Below are positions 79-11,377 of a stretch of DNA of 64,000 bases, one piece after another. This DNA comes from Nonomuraea indica. Lineage in GTDB: Bacteria > Actinomycetota > Actinomycetes > Streptosporangiales > Streptosporangiaceae. The position numbers and the translations under genes are program-made. The notes under the pieces are model-generated. The model saw nothing but the letters and a program-made list of their open reading frames with translations, had not been told where the DNA came from and made no database searches. Positions within the stretch are counted from its first letter, which is position 1, and each line of letters opens with the position of its first letter. The stretch is from positions 176,203 to 240,202 of the forward strand of contig NZ_KZ559475.1 of the NCBI RefSeq assembly GCF_002850745.1, in the 5' to 3' direction.

Positions 79-2715
79 TCAGTACCGGCCGCAGTTCGTC
101 CAGGTGCCGCCGCCCTCGTCGCTGAGCATGTACGTGCCCGGGTCCCTGGCGATCGTCCACGTCACCCGCAGCCTGAGCGTCCCGCCGCCCGTCGCGGTGC
201 CCGCCGTGGCGCGGCCGTCGCCCCGGGCGACACCGGTCCAGCGGACGAGGATCGTACCGGTGCGCGTGACGGCGGGGCCGGCGCAGCCGGGGAGCGCGGC
301 CGGCGCCTTCACCCGGAACGTCCGCCCCGACACCACGATGCCGGACGAGCCGCGCGCCGACGTCACGCGGCACGACCCGCCCCTGCAGGCCAGCGCGAAC
401 GTGCCGGTGCGGCGGGAGCCGAGCCGGACCGCGGCCTGGGACAGGGACGCCACCGGAGGCCGGGGGCGGGGGAGAGCCTGCCGGGTGGGCCGGGGCTCCC
501 GGTCCTGTCCCGCCTCGTTGCTGGTCATGGCGCCCGGCTCGGCCCGCTTCCGGGAGGCCGGGCTCATGGTCCCCGCCGGCGCCGGGCGTTCCGTGGCCTC
601 GCGGGCGGGCGCCGGGGTGGGGGTCGCCGGGGCCGGGCTCGCGGCGAGGGAGGGTGCGCCGTCCCTTCCGCGTTCGGCGTCCCTGTCCTGCGCGGTGTCC
701 CTGCCGGGCCCGGTGTCCGTCAGGGGCCCGGCGCCGGTACCGGCGTCGGCGGGCGGGGGGACCGCCACCGCAGGGCCGGGCGACGGGCGGTCCTGCGGGG
801 CGGGGGTCACCGCGGGCCCCGGGGCCGACACCTCGTTCATCACCGGCATGCGCTGGCGGGCGTTGAGCCCCGACCAGGCCAGGCCCGCCACCAGGAGGCC
901 GACGCCGACCAGCAGCCCGACGCGGGCCACGGCCCTGACCGTGAGCACGGTGTCCGGGTCCGCGTCGCCGGGGCGGTTGCGCCAGAACTCCTCGCCGCCG
1001 TGCAGGTCCACGATCTCGCCGAACTCGGCCCGGCGCGCGCTGGGGAACGGGACGCTCCCGGCCGCCGGAAGGCCTCGCGGCGGCTCGGCCGGACGGGTGC
1101 CCAGCGCCCAAGCCGGGGTGTCCGCCTGCCGCGGCACCGGCCGCCGGCCCGGCCCGTTCGCCGCGGGAAGCGCGGAGGGCGGCGCGGGAAGCGCGGAGGG
1201 CGGCGCGGCCCGCTCGGGGCGCGGTGAGACGGCCGGCGCGGGACGTGCCGGGCCGGGAGGGGCGGGACGGGGCCGGGGAACTCGCGCGGCGGGCGAGAGG
1301 GTGGGCCGCTCCCGGGGCGGGGCGACGGCGAGCTCGTCGCCGGGGATCGGGGCGCTGAGGATCAGGCGGTCCTTGGACGGGGTGCGGGGGGTGCCGGCCA
1401 CGTGGCGGTCCGTGGGAAGGGCGGTGGGGAGCCGGCGGCCGGCGGGGGGCGGGGGCACCGCCGGGCGGCGCTGGGCGGGAACGGCGGCGGCGCCCGTCCC
1501 GCCGGTCCATGGTGGGCCATCGTCCGGGTGGTGCTCCCAGGGCGGGCCACCTTCGGCCCGGCGTGAGGGGTCCCGCTCCTGACCGGCCGGGCCGCTGCTG
1601 CTCCGGTCACGAACGGACGCCGCTGGAAGGTTCCGGTATGGCACGCCTCCGCGGTTGCGGCGGACGATGGCCCACTCTGGAGACCGGTCCGGGGACCGGT
1701 CGGCACCCGAAACCGCGCCGGCACCGTCACCGGCTCTCGCGCGGCCGCCCGCGCGAGAGCCCGTGAGGGAGCCGGTGGCGGCGTCCTCGCCGGCGGCCGG
1801 ACCCTGGTCCGGCGGGCCCGGCCGGGCGTGCTTGCTGGTCGGGCGGGGCGCGGCCGGTTCAGGTGTGTGCTCCGGGCCGGCGGCGGCCGCGCCCGCCGCC
1901 GGCCCGGAGCTTTCCCAGGTCCCCGTCGTGGGGCCGGGGACCGGAGACAGCGGCGGGGGGACGGGCTCCCGGTGCAGGCCGTGCGCCTGCGCGGGGAACC
2001 CGTCCGCCCGCCACAGCCCGTCGTCGCCCGGGAGAGGCAGCGCCCAGGCGAGCTGCTCGTGCAGCGTGCCGGGCGCGGGCGCGATGGGCATCTGCCGCAG
2101 AAGCGTGTCCGCCACCATGGTGCGCGGCGCACGCCGGCAGGCGTCACAGTGGGCGATGTGGCGGCTGATCCGCGCGCGGGTACGCCTGCCCGGAGCCGAG
2201 GCCCAGTCCGTCACCCGCGACTCCAGCGCCGGGCACCCGTGGCGGGTCCGGGCGGCGATGACGGCCGCGAACCACTCCTCCAGCCCGTCGGCCGCCTCCA
2301 GCACGACCGTCTCCACCTCGTCCGGCGTGACATCGAAGATCGCCGCGATCTCGCCGTGCGTCAGCCCGTGCCGTACCGACAGGTCGAGCAGCTCGCGGTG
2401 CGGCGCGTCCAGGGCGCGCAGCGCCTCCGGCAGCAGGTCCGACATCCGGCCGGGCCGCGACCACGAGCCGACGCTGGTGGGGGTGGACAGGTAGGTGCGG
2501 TGCGCGCGGGCCAGCGCGTACAGCCAGGGGCGCAGGAGCGAGCTCTGGTCGACTCGGTCGGCTCGGGCGTGCGCCGACAGCAGGGCCCCCGCCACGGCCA
2601 GCTCGGCGTCGCTCGACGAGAGCTCCGTCCGGCAGTAGTCGTAGAGATGGGGACCGTAGCCGTCGCACAGCTCGCGGACGGCCTCGCGAGCGTCCTCCGA
2701 CAGCGTGCGCCACAT
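79..2715 (-). CDS. ECF-like sigma factor fused to zinc anti-sigma motif, membrane helix and extracytoplasmic domain
   Basis: The protein has 878 residues. Residues about 1-160 look like the sigma-70 region 2 and region 4 of an ECF factor, including a helix-turn-helix stretch (LTHGEIAAIFDVTPDEVE). At about 185-193 comes HIAHCDAC, which fits the Hx3Cx2C zinc motif of ZAS anti-sigma domains. A roughly 390-residue Pro/Ala/Arg-rich linker follows, then one membrane helix near 590-612 (VARVGLLVGVGLLVAGLAW), a second Pro-rich stretch, and a C-terminal domain (about 745-878) with four cysteines. The order suggests a membrane-tethered sigma factor carrying its own inhibitor and an outside sensor domain; related fusions are known among actinobacterial ECF groups. 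Function is inferred from architecture. The start is an ATG 74 bases downstream of the hemB-like stop, so it could be read through from that operon. Confidence 0.72.
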   Translation of the reverse strand: MWRTLSEDAREAVRELCDGYGPHLYDYCRTELSSSDAELAVAGALLSAHARADRVDQSSLLRPWLYALARAHRTYLSTPTSVGSWSRPGRMSDLLPEALRALDAPHRELLDLSVRHGLTHGEIAAIFDVTPDEVETVVLEAADGLEEWFAAVIAARTRHGCPALESRVTDWASAPGRRTRARISRHIAHCDACRRAPRTMVADTLLRQMPIAPAPGTLHEQLAWALPLPGDDGLWRADGFPAQAHGLHREPVPPPLSPVPGPTTGTWESSGPAAGAAAAGPEHTPEPAAPRPTSKHARPGPPDQGPAAGEDAATGSLTGSRAGGRARAGDGAGAVSGADRSPDRSPEWAIVRRNRGGVPYRNLPAASVRDRSSSGPAGQERDPSRRAEGGPPWEHHPDDGPPWTGGTGAAAVPAQRRPAVPPPPAGRRLPTALPTDRHVAGTPRTPSKDRLILSAPIPGDELAVAPPRERPTLSPAARVPRPRPAPPGPARPAPAVSPRPERAAPPSALPAPPSALPAANGPGRRPVPRQADTPAWALGTRPAEPPRGLPAAGSVPFPSARRAEFGEIVDLHGGEEFWRNRPGDADPDTVLTVRAVARVGLLVGVGLLVAGLAWSGLNARQRMPVMNEVSAPGPAVTPAPQDRPSPGPAVAVPPPADAGTGAGPLTDTGPGRDTAQDRDAERGRDGAPSLAASPAPATPTPAPAREATERPAPAGTMSPASRKRAEPGAMTSNEAGQDREPRPTRQALPRPRPPVASLSQAAVRLGSRRTGTFALACRGGSCRVTSARGSSGIVVSGRTFRVKAPAALPGCAGPAVTRTGTILVRWTGVARGDGRATAGTATGGGTLRLRVTWTIARDPGTYMLSDEGGGTWTNCGRY

Positions 2716-2789: not shown

Positions 2790-3767
2790 TCAGCGGAGCA
2801 GGTGCTCGGCGACCTCCGTCGCCCAGTACGTGACGACGCTGCCCGCCCCCGCCCGGCGGATCGCGGTGAGGCTCTCCAGGATGGCGCGCTCGCGCGCCAG
2901 CCAGCCGTTCGCCACGGCCGCCTCGATCGCCGCGTACTCACCCGACACCTGGTACGCCGCCACCGGGACGTTGACGGCGTCGGCGACCCGGCGCACCACG
3001 TCCAGGTACAGGCCGGCCGGCTTGACCATCACCATGTCCGCCCCCTCCTCCACGTCGAGCAGCACCTCGCGCAGCGACTCGCGCAGGTTCGCGGGGTCCT
3101 GCTGGTGGGTGGAGCGGGTGCCGACCAGCCGCGACTCCACCGCGTCACGGAACGGGCCGTAGAAGGCGGAGTCGTACTTGGCGGCGTAGGCGAGGATCGG
3201 CACGCGCTCGTGCCCGGCGGCGTCGAGGGCGCGGCGGATGGCGCCGACCTGACCGTCCATCATCCCGCTGGGCGCCACCACGTGGGCGCCGGCGGCGGCC
3301 TGCGCCTCGGCGACCCGGGCGTAGGCCTGGAGCGTGGCGTCGTTGTCGACGTCGCCGTCCGGGCCGAGGATGCCGACGTGGCCGTGCCGGGTGTACTCGT
3401 CGAGGTTGATGTCGCCGATCACCACGGTGGCGTCGCCCACCTCGGCGGCGACGTCGGCGATGGCGAGCTGGGTGATGCCGTCGGGGGCCCACGCGCCGCG
3501 TCCGTCGGCGTCCTTGGCCTCCGGGATGCCGAAGATCAGCAGCCCGCCGACGCCGGCCCGCACGGCCGCGGCGGCGGCCTTGCGCACGCTGTCGCGCGTG
3601 TGCTGGACCTGGCCGGGCATGCAGGCGATCGGGCGCGGCTCGTCGATGCCCTCGCGGACGAACAGTGGCTGGATCAGGTCGGCGGGGTGCAGGCGGGTCT
3701 CGGCGACCAGGCCGCGCAGGGCGGAGGTGCGCCGCAGGCGGCGGGGACGTTCTGCGGGAAAACTCAC
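2790..3767 (-). CDS. hemB: Porphobilinogen synthase (5-aminolevulinate dehydratase), atypical metal site
   Basis: The 325-residue protein has normal HemB length. The family condenses two 5-aminolevulinate molecules to porphobilinogen in the cytoplasm. Both active-site lysines are visible: K197 in AAKYDSAFYGPF and K249 in MVKPAGLYLD. The substrate loop YQVSGEYAAI is present. At the metal-binding loop (about 119-131, DINLDEYTRHGHV) the positions usually held by Cys in zinc enzymes are N121, D123 and V131; from memory, actinobacterial housekeeping HemB keeps at least two Cys there. I chose the GTG at 3765-3767 because it lies two bases after the upstream stop and gives the standard N-terminus. 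It is the last gene of a nine-gene operon without hemC or hemD, so it may be a specialised paralogue rather than the haem-pathway enzyme. Confidence 0.9.
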   Translation of the reverse strand: MSFPAERPRRLRRTSALRGLVAETRLHPADLIQPLFVREGIDEPRPIACMPGQVQHTRDSVRKAAAAAVRAGVGGLLIFGIPEAKDADGRGAWAPDGITQLAIADVAAEVGDATVVIGDINLDEYTRHGHVGILGPDGDVDNDATLQAYARVAEAQAAAGAHVVAPSGMMDGQVGAIRRALDAAGHERVPILAYAAKYDSAFYGPFRDAVESRLVGTRSTHQQDPANLRESLREVLLDVEEGADMVMVKPAGLYLDVVRRVADAVNVPVAAYQVSGEYAAIEAAVANGWLARERAILESLTAIRRAGAGSVVTYWATEVAEHLLR

Positions 3768-3769
3768 GG

Positions 3770-4570
3770 CTAGCCTCCGATGACCTTGCCGAGCAGGACG
3801 CGCTCGGCGTGTTCGACGGCGGCGGCGGGGGGACGCCGCAGCCAGTAACCGGCCGTGCTGCGCGCCGTGATGTGCAGCGCGCGCAGCTCGCACAGATGCT
3901 CGGCCGTCTTGATCGCCAGCCCGCCGGGGTCGATGACCGGCAGGCCGTGCAGCTCGTGGACGCGCAGGTGGACGAGGATGACGTTCGGGATGCCCTCGGC
4001 GGGCACCAGCCACTGCGCCCCCGCCTCGGCGGCGCGCAGGGCGGCCTGGGTGTAGGCGTCGAGGAACGGCTCGAAGTCGCCGTCCAGGGCCCGCTCGACG
4101 ACCGCCCGGCCGTCCTCGACGACCTGGTAGGAGGCCAGGTCGGCGCCGGCGGCGCGGATGTTGTCGGTGATCGGCTCCCTCAGGTGGCCGATGAAGCCGA
4201 GCACGCCCAGCCGGTGCCGCTCCATCCGGGCGGCCTGCCAGACGGCGTCGCCGTACCCGACGACGGGGATCGACACGCGGGTGCGGGCCGCCGCCAGGCC
4301 GGGGTCCTGCCCGGCGCCGCTGATCCAGGCGGCGCAGCCGTCCCGCTCGGCCTGCACGGCCGTCCGGGCGAAGTAGTGGCCGAACAGCAGCCCGATCTCC
4401 CCGTAACCGACCAGGTGCTCGGGCAGCGCGGTGCCGTACGTCTCGGGCGGCAGCGTGTGGACCTCCACGGTCGTGCCCGGGCCGGTGACCATGGCCAGGT
4501 GCTCGGCGTACATCTTGTCCAGAAGTGCCGAACGGCCCTCGACGGTGTGCTTCTGGAACCAGATCCGCAT
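3770..4570 (-). CDS. Asp/Glu/hydantoin racemase-superfamily protein lacking both catalytic cysteines
   Basis: The 266-residue length and the two-lobe pattern fit the Asp/Glu/hydantoin racemase superfamily: N-terminal beta strand MRIWFQ, mid-protein IPVVGYGDAV, and LGVLGFIG. In racemases and maleate isomerases a cysteine sits in each half. Here the first site reads ISGAGQDPG (83-91) and the second reads LVPAEGIPN (188-196), so neither has Cys. A proton-transfer racemase mechanism with two thiols is therefore unlikely. It could be a decarboxylase, lyase or non-catalytic partner of the second superfamily member encoded at 5744-6472. The ATG follows the upstream stop by one base and its own stop is two bases before hemB, so it is translationally coupled on both sides. 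Confidence 0.72.
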   Translation of the reverse strand: MRIWFQKHTVEGRSALLDKMYAEHLAMVTGPGTTVEVHTLPPETYGTALPEHLVGYGEIGLLFGHYFARTAVQAERDGCAAWISGAGQDPGLAAARTRVSIPVVGYGDAVWQAARMERHRLGVLGFIGHLREPITDNIRAAGADLASYQVVEDGRAVVERALDGDFEPFLDAYTQAALRAAEAGAQWLVPAEGIPNVILVHLRVHELHGLPVIDPGGLAIKTAEHLCELRALHITARSTAGYWLRRPPAAAVEHAERVLLGKVIGG

Positions 4571-4571
4571 G

Positions 4572-5747
4572 TCAGCGATTCCTTACCGCTTGGGGGAGGG
4601 TGTCGAGCATGGACGCCTGCGCCAGGTAGACGCGGGTGGCCCCCGGGTCACCGGCGATGGCCCGCAGTCCCGCCATCGCCGCGGCCAGGCGGGAGGTGTC
4701 GCGGTCCTGCACGCCGGCCACGCGCGCCTCGCTGCGCGGGATGACCTGGTCGAGCAGGACGGCCCGCCGCCGCGCCGCCCAGGTGTCGAGCGCGCCGGGC
4801 CCCGCCTCGCCGGCCAGCACCTCGGCGAGGGCCCGGCCCAGCTCGACGGCGTCGTGGATGCCGGCGTTCATGTTCAGCCCGCCGGCGGTGGAGGTCAGGT
4901 GCGCGGCGTCGCCGGCGAACAGGACCCGGCCGCACCGGTAGGAGGGCAGCACGCCGCGGGCCAGGCCGTACCGGTCGGCGCCGACGACGCGGACCGGGCG
5001 GCTGACGCCGGGCAGCGCCCGCCGGACGAGCGCGGCGACGCTGGAGGTGGCCAGGGGGTTGCGGGCGTCGCACGGGATGCGCACGACGATCCGCCAGTGG
5101 TCGGGCAGCGCGAGCAGGCTGCACGACTGTCCGACGTCGCGCACGTACGTGAGCGGCGCGAGCCGCGGCAGCAGCTCGTCCAGCGGCGAGTCGGTGAAGA
5201 CCCGCAGCGCCTGGGTCGGGTAGGCGACGCGGTGGAACGGCAGGCCGAGCGAGCTGCGCACCGTGCTGTGCGCGCCGTCGGCGGCGACCACGTACCTGGC
5301 CCTGGCCCAGCTGCGGCCCATCCGGATCCGCACCCCGGTGCCGCCCTCGGCCAGGCCGTCCACCCGCGTCCCGAACCGCACGTCGGCCTCCGGGAAGGCC
5401 TCCAGCGCCGACAGCAGCAGCGGGGTGAGCGCCGACTGCTCGGCGTGCAGCCGGAACGGGTGCCGGGTCAGCCCGTCGAGGCTGCCCATCCCCATCTCGG
5501 CCAGCACGAGCCCGGCCCGGTCGCGCCACTGGACGCGGTCCACCACCCGGCCGCGGGCGATGAGCGGCCCGGCGACACCCAGGTCGTCGAGCAGGTCGAG
5601 CGTGGCCGGGTGGAACGTGGAGGCGCGCGACTGCGAGCCGAGCCCCTCCTCCCGCTCGAACACGGTGACCGGCACGCCGGCCCTGGCCAGCGTGAGCGCC
5701 GCCGTCAGCCCGACGGGCCCGGCACCGACCACGATGACGCCCTTCAT
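4572..5747 (-). CDS. FAD-dependent aromatic-type monooxygenase
   Basis: The 391-residue protein belongs to the group A flavin hydroxylases (p-hydroxybenzoate hydroxylase fold). It has the N-terminal GxGxxG dinucleotide motif (GAGPVG, 8-13) ending in an acidic strand (VFERE), the DG motif (AADGAHS, 155-161) and the GD motif for FAD ribose (FAGDAAHL, 277-284) followed by GGLNMNAGIHDAVEL. These enzymes use NAD(P)H and O2 to hydroxylate electron-rich rings or carry out related oxidations. The substrate is unknown; in this operon a pyrrole, pyridine or enol acid is plausible. The ATG overlaps the preceding stop (ATGA) and the stop lies one base before the next gene, so it is an internal gene of a coupled operon. 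Confidence 0.85.
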   Translation of the reverse strand: MKGVIVVGAGPVGLTAALTLARAGVPVTVFEREEGLGSQSRASTFHPATLDLLDDLGVAGPLIARGRVVDRVQWRDRAGLVLAEMGMGSLDGLTRHPFRLHAEQSALTPLLLSALEAFPEADVRFGTRVDGLAEGGTGVRIRMGRSWARARYVVAADGAHSTVRSSLGLPFHRVAYPTQALRVFTDSPLDELLPRLAPLTYVRDVGQSCSLLALPDHWRIVVRIPCDARNPLATSSVAALVRRALPGVSRPVRVVGADRYGLARGVLPSYRCGRVLFAGDAAHLTSTAGGLNMNAGIHDAVELGRALAEVLAGEAGPGALDTWAARRRAVLLDQVIPRSEARVAGVQDRDTSRLAAAMAGLRAIAGDPGATRVYLAQASMLDTLPQAVRNR

Positions 5748-6472
5748 GTCCGCTGCCCCTGCGCCGCCGGCCGGTACGGAACCCGGCCCAGCCCGATCGG
5801 CATGCCCGTCACCCGGGACAGCGCCCACCACGCGCTGCACAGGTTCGAGGTGAGCAGGACCCGGTCGTTCCCCGCGCCGATCGAGACCAGCGCGGGCAGC
5901 GTCAGCATGCCGGTGCCGCTGATCAGCACCACCGCGTCGTCCGGCAGGGCCGCCTGCTCGACCTGCTCGACCAGCTCGGCCTGGGTGACCTTGTACGGGG
6001 CGAACCGGCCGCGGGCCCGCACCTCGACCACCCGCCCGACGTGCACGCCCGCCGCCTTCCAGAACCGCTCGGCCAGCTCCGTCAGCCACGGCTCGTACGG
6101 CGAGACGAGGATGATCTCCTCGGCGCCCAGATGCTCGATGGCCTCCAGCGTGGCCAGCGTCGCCGTGGCGAACGGCACGCCGAACCTCCTGCTCAGCTCG
6201 TCGCAGGCGAGGCGGTCCTCGTCGGGGCCGAGCAGGTAGCGCGAGCCGCTGCACGCCGAGACGATCGCGTCGAGGCGCAGGCCGCCGAACGAGCAGATCA
6301 TCGCGGGCAGGGCCTCGTTGTAGGCCTCCAGCCGCTCGGCGAGCGTCAGGCCGGGCCGTACCGGGAAGCGGGTGACATGCATGTCGGCGCGGGAGCCCAG
6401 CAGCCGGGCCAGCTCCGGCTCGGCCGCCGGGTTGGCCGGGGGCACGATCACGCCCGCCCTGCCGCGGCTCAT
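5744..6472 (-). CDS. Maleate isomerase/arylmalonate decarboxylase-family protein with a single catalytic Cys
   Basis: The 242-residue protein has the layout of maleate cis-trans isomerase and arylmalonate decarboxylase: N-terminal GVIVPPANPAAEPE, first-site SACSGS with C74, and a second-site strand VVLISGTGMLTL near 181-192. In maleate isomerase the second site is normally SCTN with a catalytic Cys; here that position is G186. From memory, arylmalonate decarboxylase has the reverse, Gly near 74 and Cys near 188. The retained C74 argues for a one-base mechanism such as stereospecific decarboxylation rather than two-base isomerisation, but this is inference. The start ATG overlaps the preceding stop (ATGA), and the stop overlaps the FAD monooxygenase start. 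Confidence 0.8.
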   Translation of the reverse strand: MSRGRAGVIVPPANPAAEPELARLLGSRADMHVTRFPVRPGLTLAERLEAYNEALPAMICSFGGLRLDAIVSACSGSRYLLGPDEDRLACDELSRRFGVPFATATLATLEAIEHLGAEEIILVSPYEPWLTELAERFWKAAGVHVGRVVEVRARGRFAPYKVTQAELVEQVEQAALPDDAVVLISGTGMLTLPALVSIGAGNDRVLLTSNLCSAWWALSRVTGMPIGLGRVPYRPAAQGQRT

Positions 6473-7056
6473 GCGGTCCTCCCCTTCCGCGGCTCCGGCC
6501 GGGCGCGCCGGTCTCCGCCCGGGGCGCCCGGCGCGTCGAGGGCGAACAGGGCGCGCATCGCGTCGGCGTAGCTCTCGCCGAGCGGGGAGCCGGCGTTGCT
6601 GGTGAGCCGTGTGATGGGGCAGGCCAGGAACTCGTCCACCACCCGCTGGATCGCCAGCCGGACCTCGTCGCGCGCCTCCTCGTCCAGGGCGGGCGCCCGG
6701 GAGGCGAGCCGGCCCAGCTCGGCGTCGGCGACGGCGTCCGCCCTGCGCCGCAGCGCGACCACGACCGTGCGCGCCCCGGAGGCCGCCGTGCGCAGCCGCG
6801 ACGCCGCCCGCCAGGCCCCGGCCGGGACCGCCTGGGCGCCCGGCGCGCCGTGCGGGTCCGGGGCCCGGCGGCGCGCCCCGAGCGTCGTCACCGGGGTCCT
6901 CGGCGTCGCGGTGCGGGCCGCCGGGAGGGGGACCGGCACCGTGCCGATCCGCGCCGTTCCGGCGGCGCCGATCGGGACCGGGCGGACCGGGACCGGGGCG
7001 TCGTCCCGGCCGCGGTCGTCCGGCAGGACCGGCGTGGGGGCGAGGGTGGCGGTCAT
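6469..7056 (-). CDS. Stand-alone glutamyl-tRNA reductase C-terminal (dimerisation) domain-like protein
   Basis: This is a 195-residue protein. Residues about 1-95 are low-complexity, rich in Pro, Ala and Arg. Residues about 98-174 resemble the helical C-terminal dimerisation domain of glutamyl-tRNA reductase (HemA): a long helix ending ELGRLASRAPAL, the stretch EVRLAIQRVVDEFLACPITRL, and the closing YADAMRALFALD. The catalytic and NADPH-binding domains of HemA are absent, so it cannot reduce glutamyl-tRNA by itself. It may bind a real GluTR elsewhere in the cell and steer glutamate-1-semialdehyde, or be a remnant scaffold. The ATG overlaps the preceding stop by one base (TGATG); the TTG 15 bases upstream is less likely. 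The link to hemB in the same operon supports a haem-precursor connection. Confidence 0.62.
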   Translation of the reverse strand: MTATLAPTPVLPDDRGRDDAPVPVRPVPIGAAGTARIGTVPVPLPAARTATPRTPVTTLGARRRAPDPHGAPGAQAVPAGAWRAASRLRTAASGARTVVVALRRRADAVADAELGRLASRAPALDEEARDEVRLAIQRVVDEFLACPITRLTSNAGSPLGESYADAMRALFALDAPGAPGGDRRARPEPRKGRTA

Positions 7057-7280
7057 CAGCAACCCGACCAAGCCGCTGCCCAGAAGGCCGCCTCCCGCCG
7101 GGCGGCCTCGTCCTCGGCGGTGGTGTCGTGCCGGGCGCCGTCACGCTCGCCGACGTGGAGCAGCACGCCGGTGCGCTCGGCGCCGAGCAGGTCCACCGCG
7201 GCCCCGATCACGGTGTCGGCGAACTCCCGCCGCTGGTCGGCGGCGACGTCGTCCGGGCAATCGACCTTGATGGTGACCAT
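7056..7280 (-). CDS. 4-oxalocrotonate tautomerase-like small protein without Pro1
   Basis: The 74-residue length and the beginning MVTIKVDCPDD followed by an amphipathic helix (ADQRREFADTVIGAAVDLLG) and a second strand (TGVLLHVGE) match the beta-alpha-beta unit of the 4-oxalocrotonate tautomerase family. In active tautomerases residue 2 of the gene product is Pro, which becomes the catalytic N-terminal Pro1. Here it is Val, so normal tautomerase chemistry is not expected. A strong ribosome binding site (GGAGGAG) lies about five bases before the ATG. It precedes and overlaps the GluTR-domain gene. A structural or ligand-binding role is possible; the assignment rests on length and secondary-structure pattern only. 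Confidence 0.5.
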   Translation of the reverse strand: MVTIKVDCPDDVAADQRREFADTVIGAAVDLLGAERTGVLLHVGERDGARHDTTAEDEAARREAAFWAAAWSGC

Positions 7281-7305
7281 GGTCTCCTCCTGCGATGGGG
7301 GGTTG

Positions 7306-7563
7306 TCAGGACGCGTGCTCGAGCACCTGGTCGATCACGCTGATCGCCTGGTCGGACACCAGCCGGATGTGGTGCAGCCGGTGCACGGTCCGCTCGGGGG
7401 CGGGCTCCCCGGGGCGCTCGCCGGGCTGCGCCCCGGTGAACTCGCGGGCGGCCTCGATCCGGTCGCGGAGGGCGCCGGCAGGGGGAGGCGGCAGGCGCCG
7501 CTCGCCACGCGAGGTGACCTCGTAGGGGTGCGGGTACGGCCTGCGGACATCGTCGGCGATCAT
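7306..7563 (-). CDS. Small hypothetical protein in the hemB-like operon
   Basis: I do not recognise this 85-residue protein. It has a charged N-terminal half with a Pro run (LPPPPAGALRDR) and a His-containing C-terminal helix (RTVHRLHHIRLVSDQAISVIDQVLEHA). There is no signal peptide, membrane segment or cysteine. It starts with ATG eight bases after the stop of the MFS gene and ends about 25 bases before the tautomerase-like gene, so it is an internal gene of the operon. The absence of Cys and of a leader/core layout makes a lanthipeptide-type precursor unlikely. It may be an accessory subunit of one of the neighbouring enzymes. Confidence 0.55.
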   Translation of the reverse strand: MIADDVRRPYPHPYEVTSRGERRLPPPPAGALRDRIEAAREFTGAQPGERPGEPAPERTVHRLHHIRLVSDQAISVIDQVLEHAS

Positions 7564-7571
7564 GACAACTC

Positions 7572-9161
7572 CTAGTTCTGGACGGCCCTATGTGGGGCCA
7601 GGTCGCGCGTGCCGAAGCGGGCGAGCTCCTCCTCGGCCTCGTCGCGCACCTGGACGAAACTGGCGCGGAGCTCGGTGAGGAGCCGCCGCAGCATGATGTT
7701 CTCGGCCTCCACCTCGCGCCGGGACATGCGCGCGGCCCGGCGGCGTGGCCGCCCGGCGACCCGCATCAGGGCCACGGTGCCGAGCACCAGGGCCACGACG
7801 AGGCAGCCGACCAGCACCGAGGCAAAGCCCGGCAGCGGCCCGTCGAGCACCGGCTGGTCGACCAGCGCCGAGGCGCCGGCCACGCCGAGCGCGCCGCCGA
7901 GCATGCGGGCGGTGTTGATCGCGCCGACCGCGGAGGCGTACTGGGTGGGATGGGCGGCCATCGTGCCGACCGTGAACGTGCCGGTGGACAGGGCGCCGAA
8001 CCCGCCGCCGAGCAGCAGCGCCGCCAGCACCGTCCACCAGGTGGGGTAGGGGTGGGCGAGCATGAGGGCGCAGCCGCCGCCGAGCGCGAGCGCGCCGGCG
8101 TAGATGACGCCGTTGAGGCCGATGCGCCGGCCGGCCAGCATCGCCAGCGGACTGGAGACGATCATCGCGATCGAGATGGGCGTCAGCCAGAGCCCGATGG
8201 TGACCGGGTCGAAGCCTGAGGTGCGCAGGTACAGCGGCCCCATGGTGAGCACCACGAACGACGCGGCGCCGTACAGCAGCGACGCGCCGCCCGCCCACAG
8301 GAAGCCGGGGCGCCGCCACAGCCGCATGTCGATCGCGCCGGCCGCGTGCCGCCACGAGGTGGCGACGGCGCCGGCCAGCAGCAGCCCGGCCACCGCCGCG
8401 CAGGCCAGCGTCCGCCCGGACGTCCAGCCCCAGGTGCCGCCCCGGGAGACCGCGAGCACGAGCGCCGTGATGGCGCCGACCAGCAGCACCGTGCCGAACA
8501 CGTCGGGCACGCGGCGGGCCGTGTCGCGGGAGCGGGGCAGCATCGGGGTGAGCATCAGCAGCGCGGCCGCCAGGCCGGCGCTGGGCAGGAACAGCCCCCG
8601 CCAGCCGTACTCGGCCACCAGCAGCCCGCCGCCGGCCTGCAGCGTCAGCGCGCCGATCCCCGACGACGCGCTCCACAGCGCCACGGCCCCGGCCCGCTTG
8701 TTCGCGGGCAGCTCGCCCAGCAGCAGGCCGAGCGAGGCGGGGAACATCAGCGCCGCGCCGACGCCCTGGGCCAGCCGGCCGCCCAGCAGCAGCGGCCACG
8801 ACGTGGTCGCGATGACCGCCGCCGCGCCGAGCCCGTACAGGGCCAGCCCGAAGGCGAGCACGGTGCGCCGGCCGAGCAGGTCGGCGAAGCGTCCGGCGGT
8901 GGCCAGCAGCGCGGCCACGGCGGCGAAGTTGACCGTGCTCACCCAGGTGACCTCGGTCATCGGCAGGGAGGCGGCGATCGGGTCGCTGCCGAGCACGGGG
9001 ATGGCCAGCGTCGTCGCCGTGCTGTCCGCCATGATCGCGATGACCACGCCACAGGCGATCAGGCGGAGCACGGCGAAACGTCCCCGGACCTGGGTCCGTG
9101 GCCGCGCCACGGGCCCCATGAACGGTCCGGCGACTCGCTCGCCGACGGGGGACAGCGTCAT
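7572..9161 (-). CDS. MFS transporter (DHA2-like drug exporter)
   Basis: The 529-residue protein has about 14 hydrophobic segments, starting with FAVLRLIACGVVIAIMADST, and the MFS motif A between helices 2 and 3 (GRFADLLGRRTVL). Motif C-like Gly/Pro-rich helix 5 (WSASSGIGALTLQAGGGLL) is typical of proton-driven drug exporters of the DHA2 type. The last ~55 residues are a cytoplasmic, charged helical tail (SRREVEAENIMLRRLLTEL), which is longer than usual. I chose the ATG at 9159-9161 because it overlaps the preceding stop (ATGA). As the only transporter in this operon it probably exports the pathway product or provides self-resistance. Confidence 0.88.
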   Translation of the reverse strand: MTLSPVGERVAGPFMGPVARPRTQVRGRFAVLRLIACGVVIAIMADSTATTLAIPVLGSDPIAASLPMTEVTWVSTVNFAAVAALLATAGRFADLLGRRTVLAFGLALYGLGAAAVIATTSWPLLLGGRLAQGVGAALMFPASLGLLLGELPANKRAGAVALWSASSGIGALTLQAGGGLLVAEYGWRGLFLPSAGLAAALLMLTPMLPRSRDTARRVPDVFGTVLLVGAITALVLAVSRGGTWGWTSGRTLACAAVAGLLLAGAVATSWRHAAGAIDMRLWRRPGFLWAGGASLLYGAASFVVLTMGPLYLRTSGFDPVTIGLWLTPISIAMIVSSPLAMLAGRRIGLNGVIYAGALALGGGCALMLAHPYPTWWTVLAALLLGGGFGALSTGTFTVGTMAAHPTQYASAVGAINTARMLGGALGVAGASALVDQPVLDGPLPGFASVLVGCLVVALVLGTVALMRVAGRPRRRAARMSRREVEAENIMLRRLLTELRASFVQVRDEAEEELARFGTRDLAPHRAVQN

Positions 9162-9916
9162 CGCGGCGTCTCCGCGAGGTCTCTGCGGGCGACGGTGACG
9201 GGGTCGGGGCGGGGGACCTCGGGACGGTTGGGCACGCTGGCCGCCACCATCCGCTCGGTCAGCCCGGTGTACCGGCCGGGCACCCGGGCCCAGGGCTGTG
9301 CCCGCCCGCCGACCAGCGACATGACGACCTGCGCCGCCAGGGTCAGGTGCTCCGCGCAGCGGCGGCTCACCTTGGCCTCCAGCCCGGCGACCTGGGCCAG
9401 GCGCAGCCGCAGCGACTCCAGGGAGGCGGTCCGCTCCAGGCCGTCCAGCTCGGCGAGCCGGTCGGGCCAGCGCAGCTCGCGGCCCAGCCGGGCGCGGACC
9501 TCCGTGGCGATCTGGTCGTCGGGGCAGTTCTCCTGGCGCAGCCGCGTGCCGATGGCGAAGGCCGTGCGGGCGGTGCGCCCGTAGTCGGCGAGCCGGCCGG
9601 ACAGCGCCGCGTCGAGCACGCGCACCCGGTGGACGAGCAGTTCGGCGCTCCAGCCGAGCACCATGAGGCGCTCGGGGCTGACCTCGGTGTGCCAGCCGGC
9701 CAGCCGCAGTTCGCGGGCCATCCGGTGGTAGTGCACCCACCGGTCGCCGTTGCCGTCCACCCACACCTCCACGCCGCCGAGCGGCAGGTTGGCGACGTGG
9801 ACGCGCTTGGTGTCGGGAACCACGCGGGCGCAGATGCGCTGGATCACCCGGTCCGGCGCCAGCACGGCCCTGGGCCGCCTGGCGAACCAGGAACCGTTCT
9901 GGGTTTCGACGGTCAC
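9158..9916 (-). CDS. Hypothetical protein, first gene of the hemB-like operon
   Basis: I cannot assign a family to this 252-residue protein. The N-terminal half (about 20-75) seems to be beta-rich and contains LPLGGVEVWVDGNGDRWVHYH. The C-terminal half is helical and Arg/Ala-rich, with a possible coiled coil around 160-190 (RTASLESLRLRLAQVAGLEAK). There is no signal peptide or membrane helix. It starts with GTG, preceded nine bases upstream by GGAGG, and its stop overlaps the MFS start. As the leading gene, divergent from the DUF5753 regulator, it could be a core enzyme or a regulatory partner. A profile search would be the first thing to do. Confidence 0.6.
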   Translation of the reverse strand: MTVETQNGSWFARRPRAVLAPDRVIQRICARVVPDTKRVHVANLPLGGVEVWVDGNGDRWVHYHRMARELRLAGWHTEVSPERLMVLGWSAELLVHRVRVLDAALSGRLADYGRTARTAFAIGTRLRQENCPDDQIATEVRARLGRELRWPDRLAELDGLERTASLESLRLRLAQVAGLEAKVSRRCAEHLTLAAQVVMSLVGGRAQPWARVPGRYTGLTERMVAASVPNRPEVPRPDPVTVARRDLAETPR

Positions 9917-9965: not shown

Positions 9966-10144
9966 GTCTCACTTTCCACGTGTCGCACTGATAGTGACGT
10001 CGTGCCCGAAGGTGTGTCAACTGGTACTTTTCAAAGGGTATGGACGACCGGCGGGCGGCCCGCCCGCCGGACCCGGGCGCGACACACGCGCGCCCGGCCT
10101 CCCCTACGCTGGTGGCCCTTGACGGGCGCGGCAGGAGGTGCGAG

Positions 10145-11377
10145 GTGGCGAACTTCGCCGAGCGACTGGACCTGGCGCTGAGAAGGCGCGGCTTCAGCGG
10201 CGCCCAGGTGGCGGCCGAGCTGACCGAGGCGGGCATCCCGATCACCCGGGCCTACGTCAGCCAGCTGCGCACGGGCAAGCAGACCAACCCGACGCTCCAG
10301 GTGCTGCGCGCCCTCGCCGCCTGCCTCCAGGTCAGCGTGGGCTGGCTGGTGGGGGAGGAGCGCCTGGAGTCGGGCGCCGCCGACGACCCGAGCCCGGAGG
10401 GGCTCGCGGGGCTGTCCGAGGGCTCACGTGAGGTGGTGCGCGGCGTGATCGAGCTGGCCCGCAGGGCCGAGGGCCTGGCCGAGCCGGCCACGACGGAGCC
10501 CGCCGGCGAGCCTGTCGTGCCGGCGCCCGCGCTCGCCGCGCCCCAGCGCGCGGCGCTCGGCGAGCGGCTGCGCGGCCTGCGGCTGGCCGCCGGACTGTCG
10601 GCGGAGCGGGCCGAGGCCGCCCTCGGGCGGGGCGCCGTCCGGATCGAGGCCGTCGAGGCGGGCCGCGCCGCGCCGCCGCCCGCCACCGTGGAACGCCTGC
10701 TCGACGTGTACGGCGTGGCCGCGCTGCCGGTCCGCGAGCACGTGCTGTCGCTGGCGCGCGGCGAGCGCGAGCCCGCCTGGTGGGACGCCGGCTCCGTCCC
10801 CGTCTGGCTGGCCACCACCTACGCGCTGGAGCAGCGCGCCTCGGTCATCCGCACCTATCATCCGCAGGTGGTGCCGCCGCTGCTGCAGACGGAGGACTAC
10901 GCGCGGGCCGCGATCACCGTGGCCGGCCTCGACACGCTCGGCCAGGACTCCCTGGATGCCGCCGTCCGGCTCGTCCTGGCCCGCCAGGAGATGGTGGCCG
11001 AGGGGCGCGGCCCCGTCGTGTGGGCGATCATCGACGAGGGCGTGCTGCTGCGCGTGATCGCCGAGCCGCACGTCCACCTCGCCCAGCTCGACGCCCTCAT
11101 CGCGCACGCCAAGCGGCCCAACGTCTCGCTGCACGTGGTCCCCATGCGGGATCCCGCCTATCTGCCGCGCACGGGGCCGTTCACGCTGTGGCGTTTTCCG
11201 GAGGCGTTCGAGCCCGACATCGCCTGCGCCCACGCCGTGGAGGCCGACGAACTGATCACCGATCCGGCCGCCGTCGAGGCCTATCACCAGGCCTTCGCCA
11301 AGCTCTCGGTCACCACGACCACGCGCGACGAGACGCTCGAACTGCTGAACACATACCGTGACGGCCTCGGCCGGTGA
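10145..11377 (+). CDS. Tandem-HTH regulator with DUF5753 domain
   Basis: This 410-residue protein has an unusual three-part layout. Residues about 4-70 form a first helix-turn-helix (AYVSQLRTGKQTNPTLQVL), reminiscent of the EspR/XRE type. Residues about 140-195 are a second, more diverged XRE-like domain (ALGERLRGLRLAAGLSAERAE). Residues about 215-405 are a DUF5753 domain (TYALEQRASVIRTYHPQVVPPLLQTEDYAR). DUF5753 regulators usually have one HTH and lie next to a DUF397 gene; no DUF397 gene is seen here. The longer frame begins at 10040, but GTG at 10145 has a good AGGAGG six bases upstream, so I prefer it. It is divergent from the hemB-like operon and is the best candidate regulator for it. 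Confidence 0.85.
   Translation: MANFAERLDLALRRRGFSGAQVAAELTEAGIPITRAYVSQLRTGKQTNPTLQVLRALAACLQVSVGWLVGEERLESGAADDPSPEGLAGLSEGSREVVRGVIELARRAEGLAEPATTEPAGEPVVPAPALAAPQRAALGERLRGLRLAAGLSAERAEAALGRGAVRIEAVEAGRAAPPPATVERLLDVYGVAALPVREHVLSLARGEREPAWWDAGSVPVWLATTYALEQRASVIRTYHPQVVPPLLQTEDYARAAITVAGLDTLGQDSLDAAVRLVLARQEMVAEGRGPVVWAIIDEGVLLRVIAEPHVHLAQLDALIAHAKRPNVSLHVVPMRDPAYLPRTGPFTLWRFPEAFEPDIACAHAVEADELITDPAAVEAYHQAFAKLSVTTTTRDETLELLNTYRDGLGR

Follow-up and report, generated by a model that had tools for sequence, protein, structure and literature searches.

A nine-gene Nonomuraea operon with a second, metal-site-altered HemB: a candidate side-branch from porphobilinogen

Why should an actinomycete keep a second porphobilinogen synthase gene (hemB) in an operon that holds neither hemC nor hemD? 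The question is raised by a locus of Nonomuraea indica within the window analysed here, a stretch of 64,000 nucleotides of contig NZ_KZ559475.1. The locus consists of nine co-directional open reading frames (ORFs) on the minus strand (g1 to g9, 2790..9916; Table 1), with successive gaps of -4, 8, 25, -1, -4, -4, 1 and 2 bases. An original prediction, made from the sequence alone, had described nine minus-strand genes with gaps or overlaps of at most about 25 bases, encoding HemB, a glutamyl-tRNA reductase (GluTR) dimerisation domain, two racemase-fold proteins, an FAD monooxygenase and a major facilitator superfamily (MFS) transporter, with hemC and hemD missing, and this description is borne out by the measured spacing and the family matches. 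With a probability of roughly 0.6, we read the operon as a dedicated side-branch from porphobilinogen, in which the pyrrole would be oxidised, isomerised and exported. The combination of an altered spare HemB with an oxygenase, isomerase-like proteins and an exporter suggests that a haem building block is diverted to an undescribed small molecule.

A second HemB lineage with an altered metal site

The last gene of the operon, g9, exceeds the curated HemB cut-offs (ALAD, 425 bits against 24.6; NCBIfam PRK09283, 441 against 297). Searching with PF00490 identifies two HemBs in the window genome, g9 and a canonical copy on contig C4, where hemB follows a hemD-like gene; just upstream lie full hemA and a gene resembling hemC (the hemC and hemD labels are our reading of the sequences). 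Because of this canonical hemA-hemC-hemD-hemB run, haem synthesis is covered elsewhere in the genome. The two findings named in advance as fatal to a pathway, a sole hemB and neighbours not conserved in relatives, are both absent: the second hemB is canonical, and the set is conserved, as described below.

HemB copy number follows the cluster. Two hemB matches are present in 11/11 cluster-positive Nonomuraea (in G185, the second is a fragment, the HemB of locus L042) and a single one in 5/5 cluster-negative Nonomuraea. A further count covered 29 genomes. Where the racemase-like gene of a Streptomyces genome has HemB as a neighbour, HemB is present twice (15/15; the second copy of G912 is split in two), and nine of ten genomes with no g8 match have one, the tenth adding a 54-bit partial match. 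The Micromonosporaceae genome G1275 has two HemBs, and the three genomes that carry g8 but lack the cluster have a single HemB each.

In a HemB tree of 18 cluster and 22 canonical sequences (L068 on a very long branch, L070 as a partial row), a single branch parts the cluster HemBs from the canonical ones, with support of 97/94 and presence in 98% of bootstrap trees. The first or third metal-site Cys is retained in none of the 31 cluster HemBs counted (of 32; L042 does not have the stretch), whereas both are retained in 22/22 canonical HemBs. In their place, 30/31 cluster HemBs carry N-L-D, with the third Cys replaced by V, S or T, and L068 carries G-L-S and S. Solved HemB relatives show Cys-rich or Ala-Asp-Asp forms of the metal site, and the cluster form matches neither. 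Additionally, all cluster rows used for the site comparison (16/18, L068 and L070 being omitted) share a Leu-to-Gln change, and both active-site lysines are present in the window HemB and in the rows shown of that comparison. The roles given to the catalytic residues (lysines, Arg, Gln, Ser and Tyr) are those in porphobilinogen synthase structures. The cluster HemBs thereby offer a natural test for the purpose of the active-site metal in porphobilinogen synthase.

Between the window and locus L033, the ratio of nonsynonymous to synonymous substitution rates (dN/dS) is 0.08-0.16 for the six larger genes, and therefore the nine-gene arrangement is not due to chance. For g3 (1.48), g4 (1.18) and g5 (0.45), the ratios rest on few changes and thus do not demonstrate selection on these genes. 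A decayed remnant of a hem operon is ruled out by the low ratios of the six larger genes together with the separate HemB lineage.

Gene sets around the cluster HemB

A g8 search of 297 genomes of the order gave matches at 1e-20 in 32 genomes, and 20 regions were examined, ten of which (L033-L042) hold g6, g7 and g8 together. In L033-L040, all nine genes occur in the same order between the same flanks (g4 of L040 was matched by a laxer search only), and L057 and L060 also carry all nine in this order. L041 contains HemB, g8, g7, g6, the g5 domain, a small protein whose last residues are W-T-G-C, the MFS transporter and g1, plus an extra thiamine diphosphate-dependent enzyme. The g1 gene was matched in 10/10 of L033-L042 and in five reduced loci discussed below. 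Two observations concern the surroundings of L042. A HemC-like gene (L042:15154-16140) has its dipyrromethane-cofactor Cys replaced and scores 138 against the NCBIfam hemC cut-off of 164. Adjoining the cluster (L042:4902-9137) are isochorismate-synthase-like, isochorismatase-like, short-chain dehydrogenase/reductase (SDR) and pyridoxal-phosphate decarboxylase-like genes (the isochorismatase-like and SDR labels are our reading), which by their sequences resemble a set as for a dihydroxybenzoate-type product.

A scan of contigs with the g8 alignment returned 19 loci, nine from genomes already covered and ten that were examined. HemB stands beside g8 in eight of these ten, namely in two Nonomuraea, a Paractinoplanes, four contigs of metagenome-assembled genomes (MAGs) with mycobacterial or mixed labels and one Solirubrobacterales MAG contig, where no g6 was seen. 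The HemB of MAG contig L068 is only 37% identical. L067 is labelled as a Bifidobacterium breve MAG, but its core resembles the one on the mycobacterial MAG contigs and one neighbour looks mycobacterial; the contig is probably mis-binned. Streptomyces canus has g8 without g6, g7 or HemB. In a Leucobacter locus (L064:4444-14816), g6-g7-g8 lie between an ABC permease gene and genes that read as thiamine salvage, and HemL-like, aldehyde-dehydrogenase-like and CitE/RipC-like genes are found there.

In a phylum-wide search of 396 genomes, only the window genome and one Streptomyces passed 1e-50, and the cluster is therefore rare overall. At the family or genus level, 16/343 Streptomyces genomes and 4/250 genomes of the Paractinoplanes family passed, and regions were examined in 13 of the 16 Streptomyces genomes. 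One 13-gene set is carried by 14/17 compared loci (12 Streptomyces and 2 Micromonosporaceae; the exceptions are L117, L127 and L128), comprising LLM oxidoreductase, LysR-like, EamA-like, YCII-LuxR, AMDase-like, FAD, racemase-like, HemB, full-length HemA, ADP-forming acyl-CoA synthetase, HemL, OsmC/Ohr and CaiB genes. These labels come from family searches, except that LysR is our reading and the EamA-like match is under its cut-off. The order is constant in the Streptomyces loci, and the edges are rearranged in the two Micromonosporaceae loci. In L102, HemA is over the TIGR01035 cut-off and HemL over the TIGR00713 cut-off. This locus is the 90-kb plasmid NZ_CP109002.1 of Streptomyces sp. NBC_00704, a location implying that the 13-gene set may move between strains. 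The expectation that the gene set would recur in other genomes is thus confirmed for HemB and the racemase-like, AMDase-like and FAD genes in several actinobacterial families (Nonomuraea, Streptomyces, Micromonosporaceae and the MAGs). The conserved occurrence of HemA, HemL and HemB without hemC or hemD alongside points to a monopyrrole product, which could be searched for in Streptomyces among others.

Tailoring-type proteins and operon layout

The proteins encoded with HemB combine recognisable folds with missing catalytic residues. In sequence, the best alignments of g8 are to hydantoin and allantoin racemases. Its structural model, with a predicted local distance difference test score (pLDDT) of 92.5, has allantoin racemase 3qvk as its top Foldseek match (E 2.3e-11). 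Of 22 g8 relatives, 18 have Ala and 4 have Thr where the first catalytic Cys would stand, and 21 have Glu and one (L042) has Ala in place of the second; Cys occurs at neither. The nearest relatives of g6 are maleate isomerases (4fq5, 4.3e-17). Gly186 of g6, invariant in 13/13, is aligned to Cys188 of AMDase, the second of the family's two catalytic Cys residues, and the first catalytic Cys of maleate isomerase may correspond to Cys74, present in 10/13 and one or two columns off in HMMER alignments.

For g4, the AlphaFold2 model is of moderate confidence (mean pLDDT 74.1, predicted template modelling score 0.49), and its best 20 Foldseek matches all belong to the 4-oxalocrotonate tautomerase (4-OT) superfamily, the best with E 6.3e-3 and none at or below 1e-3. 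Its alignment has 13 rows, three of which begin at cut points that we set; the N-terminal Pro is absent from 10/10 rows that begin at the start codon. All 13 rows end in W-[ST]-G-C, and since the Ser and Gly codons differ between rows, this conservation is at the amino-acid level. Cys-less racemase-like and Pro-less tautomerase-like proteins provide probes of how these folds work without their usual catalytic residues.

The monooxygenase g7 is over the cut-off for FAD_binding_3 (192.9 bits against 22), and its nearest solved structures are PnpA (1e-38) and HspB (7.1e-35). In g5, the N-terminal catalytic and NADPH domains of GluTR are absent, and the NCBIfam hemA models are matched C-terminally only. 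PF00745 is over its cut-off for g5 in G000, G223, G170, G185 and G236 and did not recognise g5 in G249. A tree of dimerisation domains groups g5 with the cluster HemA, with support of only 48/30. Because g5 has the dimerisation domain only and g6 and g8 have lost catalytic Cys residues, the family labels of these three proteins give no activities.

The sigma-like gene at 79-2715 lies on the same strand, 74 bases downstream of the operon. It adjoins the operon in L033-L040, is near it in L041 and unmatched in L042, and is present in the five reduced loci; it has a long C-terminal part and gives two separate matches in several relatives.

Table 1 Features of the operon and its flanks in the window
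Feature	Position	Strand	Description
g1	9158..9916	-	First gene of the operon; 252 aa; no family over cut-off (Pfam, NCBIfam)
g2	7572..9161	-	MFS exporter, DHA2-like; MFS_1 5.3e-37; EmrB subfamily 5.5e-31, under its cut-off
g3	7306..7563	-	85 aa; no family over cut-off; C-terminal stretch conserved
g4	7056..7280	-	74 aa; no family over cut-off; predicted 4-OT-like fold, no Pro-1, end W-S-G-C
g4 C-terminal W-[ST]-G-C	7059..7070	-	g4 stop overlaps g5 start (TGATG)
g5	6469..7056	-	195 aa; GlutR_dimer PF00745 1.6e-12, residues 94-173 only
g6	5744..6472	-	AMDase/maleate-isomerase-like; Amdase 1e-8
g7	4572..5747	-	Short class-A FAD monooxygenase, 391 aa; FAD_binding_3 1.2e-56
g8	3770..4570	-	Allantoin/hydantoin-racemase fold, neither catalytic Cys; Asp_Glu_race 3.4e-12
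g8 Ala86	4313..4315	-	Place of first catalytic Cys of hydantoin/allantoin racemases (HMMER alignment to 3qvj/3qvk)
g8 Glu192	3995..3997	-	Place of second catalytic Cys (HMMER alignment to 3qvj/3qvk)
g9	2790..3767	-	HemB, second copy of the genome; ALAD 1.8e-127
g9 metal-site stretch D-I-N-L-D-E-Y-T-R-H-G-H-V-G	3372..3413	-	Asn and Val replace canonical Cys and Cys
Divergent regulator	10040..11377	+	Best NCBIfam match Sco1979 family, under cut-off; adjoins operon in L033-L040
Sigma-70/ECF-like gene	79..2715	-	Possible tenth gene; weak sigma70-ECF match 1.3e-5, under cut-off

A porphobilinogen side-branch, its alternatives and known systems

As a plausible route, HemA and HemL of the fullest form would make 5-aminolevulinate (ALA) from glutamyl-tRNA, whereas in Nonomuraea ALA would be supplied by the primary pathway and the lone dimerisation domain of g5 may pair with the canonical reductase. 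The cluster HemB would condense ALA to porphobilinogen or a close analogue, and g7 would hydroxylate the electron-rich pyrrole, most likely at its free alpha carbon, giving a hydroxypyrrole or pyrrolinone. The g8-like and g6-like proteins, joined in Nonomuraea by g4, would carry out proton moves or side-chain cleavage on the five-membered ring, and the product would exit via the MFS or EamA exporter. The substrates of allantoin and hydantoin racemases are five-membered N-heterocycles, and a five-membered-ring role for g8 fits because these are its nearest relatives. Speaking for the side-branch are the second hemB in a genome that also has a canonical hem locus, the linked core set, the 13-gene form with HemA and HemL, and the HemB branch at 97/94. 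The original proposal of a dedicated pathway to an ALA- or porphobilinogen-derived metabolite accordingly stands in part: it gains from the canonical second hemB, the conserved neighbours and the HemA and HemL genes in Streptomyces and Micromonosporaceae, and is held back by family labels that carry no activities and by the changed HemB metal site. To our knowledge, porphobilinogen serves solely as a tetrapyrrole precursor, and excerpts of a review describe its use only in that capacity (PMC7242693). It is tempting, though we would give it somewhat less than an even chance, to see here a new class of monopyrrole natural products in several actinobacterial families, with a HemB lineage devoid of the usual metal ligands that would work apart from tetrapyrrole synthesis to make porphobilinogen or a new Knorr-type pyrrole, its own HemA and HemL feeding it in Streptomyces, and the pyrrole then being oxidised and isomerised by the monooxygenase and three tautomerase/racemase folds, each minus a catalytic residue.

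Several observations weigh against the side-branch. Judging from its altered metal site, the cluster HemB may yield a product other than porphobilinogen. In L042, HemB is a 134-aa ORF with the middle of the enzyme missing, and Glu192 of g8 is replaced by Ala. The other 10/20 examined g8 loci have g8 without g6, g7 or HemB, and Leucobacter L064 has g6, g7 and g8 without HemB alongside. At 1e-50, the AMDase-like gene is found in 48/54 Nonomuraea and the racemase-like gene in 13/54, all 13 also holding the AMDase-like gene, so that 35/54 have the former without the latter. Five regions from these 35 genomes with g6 and no g8 were examined as reduced loci. They keep the same flanks, g1 and the AMDase-like and FAD genes, and a search at 1e-5 did not find HemB, g4, g5 or g8 in them; the MFS gene is absent, fragmented or weakly matched, g3 was matched in 3/5, and the conserved motifs of the AMDase-like protein show common changes. 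The FAD and AMDase-like genes can thus be maintained in the absence of HemB, and the case for a strict pathway link is weaker for it. The five reduced loci are nested among full ones by starred branches of the FAD tree; for the AMDase-like gene, the best tree shows the same nesting, which its starred branches do not force. This placement therefore favours loss of HemB, g8, g4 and g5, and the reduced operon is not favoured as the ancestral form. By our reading, distant g8 genes also share operons with hydantoinase-like, CaiB-like, MmgE/PrpD-like and CitE-like genes (L128:3501-10097 and L045:3893-9990; the CoA-transferase-like neighbour in L128 also matches CaiB). Such operons fit a role on N-heterocycles, and their catabolic look also feeds an alternative considered next.

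The changed HemB could make something else, joining ALA to another partner or closing a different ring, with the remainder of the operon tailoring that product. Loss of both metal-site Cys (0/31), the fixed Leu-to-Gln change in 16 rows and the separate lineage are what this would predict, but the catalytic residues (lysines, Arg, Gln, Ser and Tyr, as placed from porphobilinogen synthase structures) look kept in the rows shown, and HemA and HemL of the fullest clusters provide ordinary ALA. L042, moreover, keeps g6 and g7 despite its broken HemB, as if canonical HemB supplied the intermediate, although this cluster may be decaying. We consider such a product unlikely, if worth bearing in mind. 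The reading of the locus as a catabolic island for an N-heterocycle, with HemB incidental, draws on the proximity of g7 to PnpA and HspB and of g6 to maleate isomerases, on the Leucobacter form with its aldehyde-dehydrogenase-like and lyase-like genes and no HemB, and on the catabolic-reading operons around distant g8 genes. However, HemA, HemL and HemB build rather than break, and the transporters are of exporter families (MFS in Nonomuraea; EamA-like, under cut-off, in Streptomyces), which makes this a distinctly unlikely account.

HemB could also protect its host, as an insensitive target, if the operon made a porphobilinogen synthase inhibitor such as an alaremycin-like ALA analogue. A second HemB with an altered active site and an exporter nearby would suit self-resistance, but the fullest clusters hold HemA and HemL as well, the FAD, AMDase-like and racemase-like genes differ from the known alaremycin genes, and the five reduced loci keep the FAD and AMDase-like genes where HemB was not found; we therefore hold this very improbable. 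Least probable of all, and likewise very improbable, is a zinc-sparing spare HemB that would serve haem synthesis in zinc shortage, with its neighbours forming a zinc-shortage regulon. Zinc-free paralogues of zinc enzymes exist, and the Cys metal ligands are indeed lost, but the operon holds neither hemC nor hemD, and HemB is consistently accompanied by an oxygenase and isomerase-like proteins. Furthermore, no Zur-box-like site (consensus with at most 4 mismatches) was found in the first 14 kb of the window, which also argues against zinc sparing. Across 33 stretches scanned, 24 had none and nine had single or double sites with 3-4 mismatches, one of which (L126) sits between the YCII and LysR genes.

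We know of no earlier description of a branch point at porphobilinogen, and a literature search among open-licence PMC papers, in which absence proves little, returned no system with the present gene set. The alaremycin pathway ties actinomycete metabolism to ALA and HemB, its enzymes being of other families. At the level of single proteins, hydantoin and allantoin racemases (3qvj, 2eq5, 5lfd) share the fold of g8 and are its best sequence match, whereas the g8 relatives have neither Cys (0/22). The 4-OTs are the best structural match of the g4 model, which differs by the absence of Pro at position 2 and by the C-terminal W-[ST]-G-C. AMDase and maleate isomerase (4fq5, 2xed, 3dtv) are the best sequence match of g6; in AMDase, the second Cys is the sole proton donor according to excerpts of one study (PMC4996985), and g6 has its invariant Gly at that place. 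At the level of pathways, the C5N unit of actinomycete secondary metabolism is an aminocyclopentenone made by a cyclising ALA synthase, as stated in the abstract of PMC4525017; as in the present cluster, a paralogue of the first haem-pathway step has been recruited. The C5N-unit pathways differ in using ALA synthase, and that abstract names no HemB, HemL or racemase-like genes. Tolyporphin clusters of a cyanobacterium, as excerpted in PMC10548856, likewise place hem-like genes in a cluster for a specialised product, which there is a tetrapyrrole, whereas the present operon is without hemC and hemD. A specialised cluster that borrows enzymes of a primary pathway, as for the C5N unit and the tolyporphins, is a known kind.

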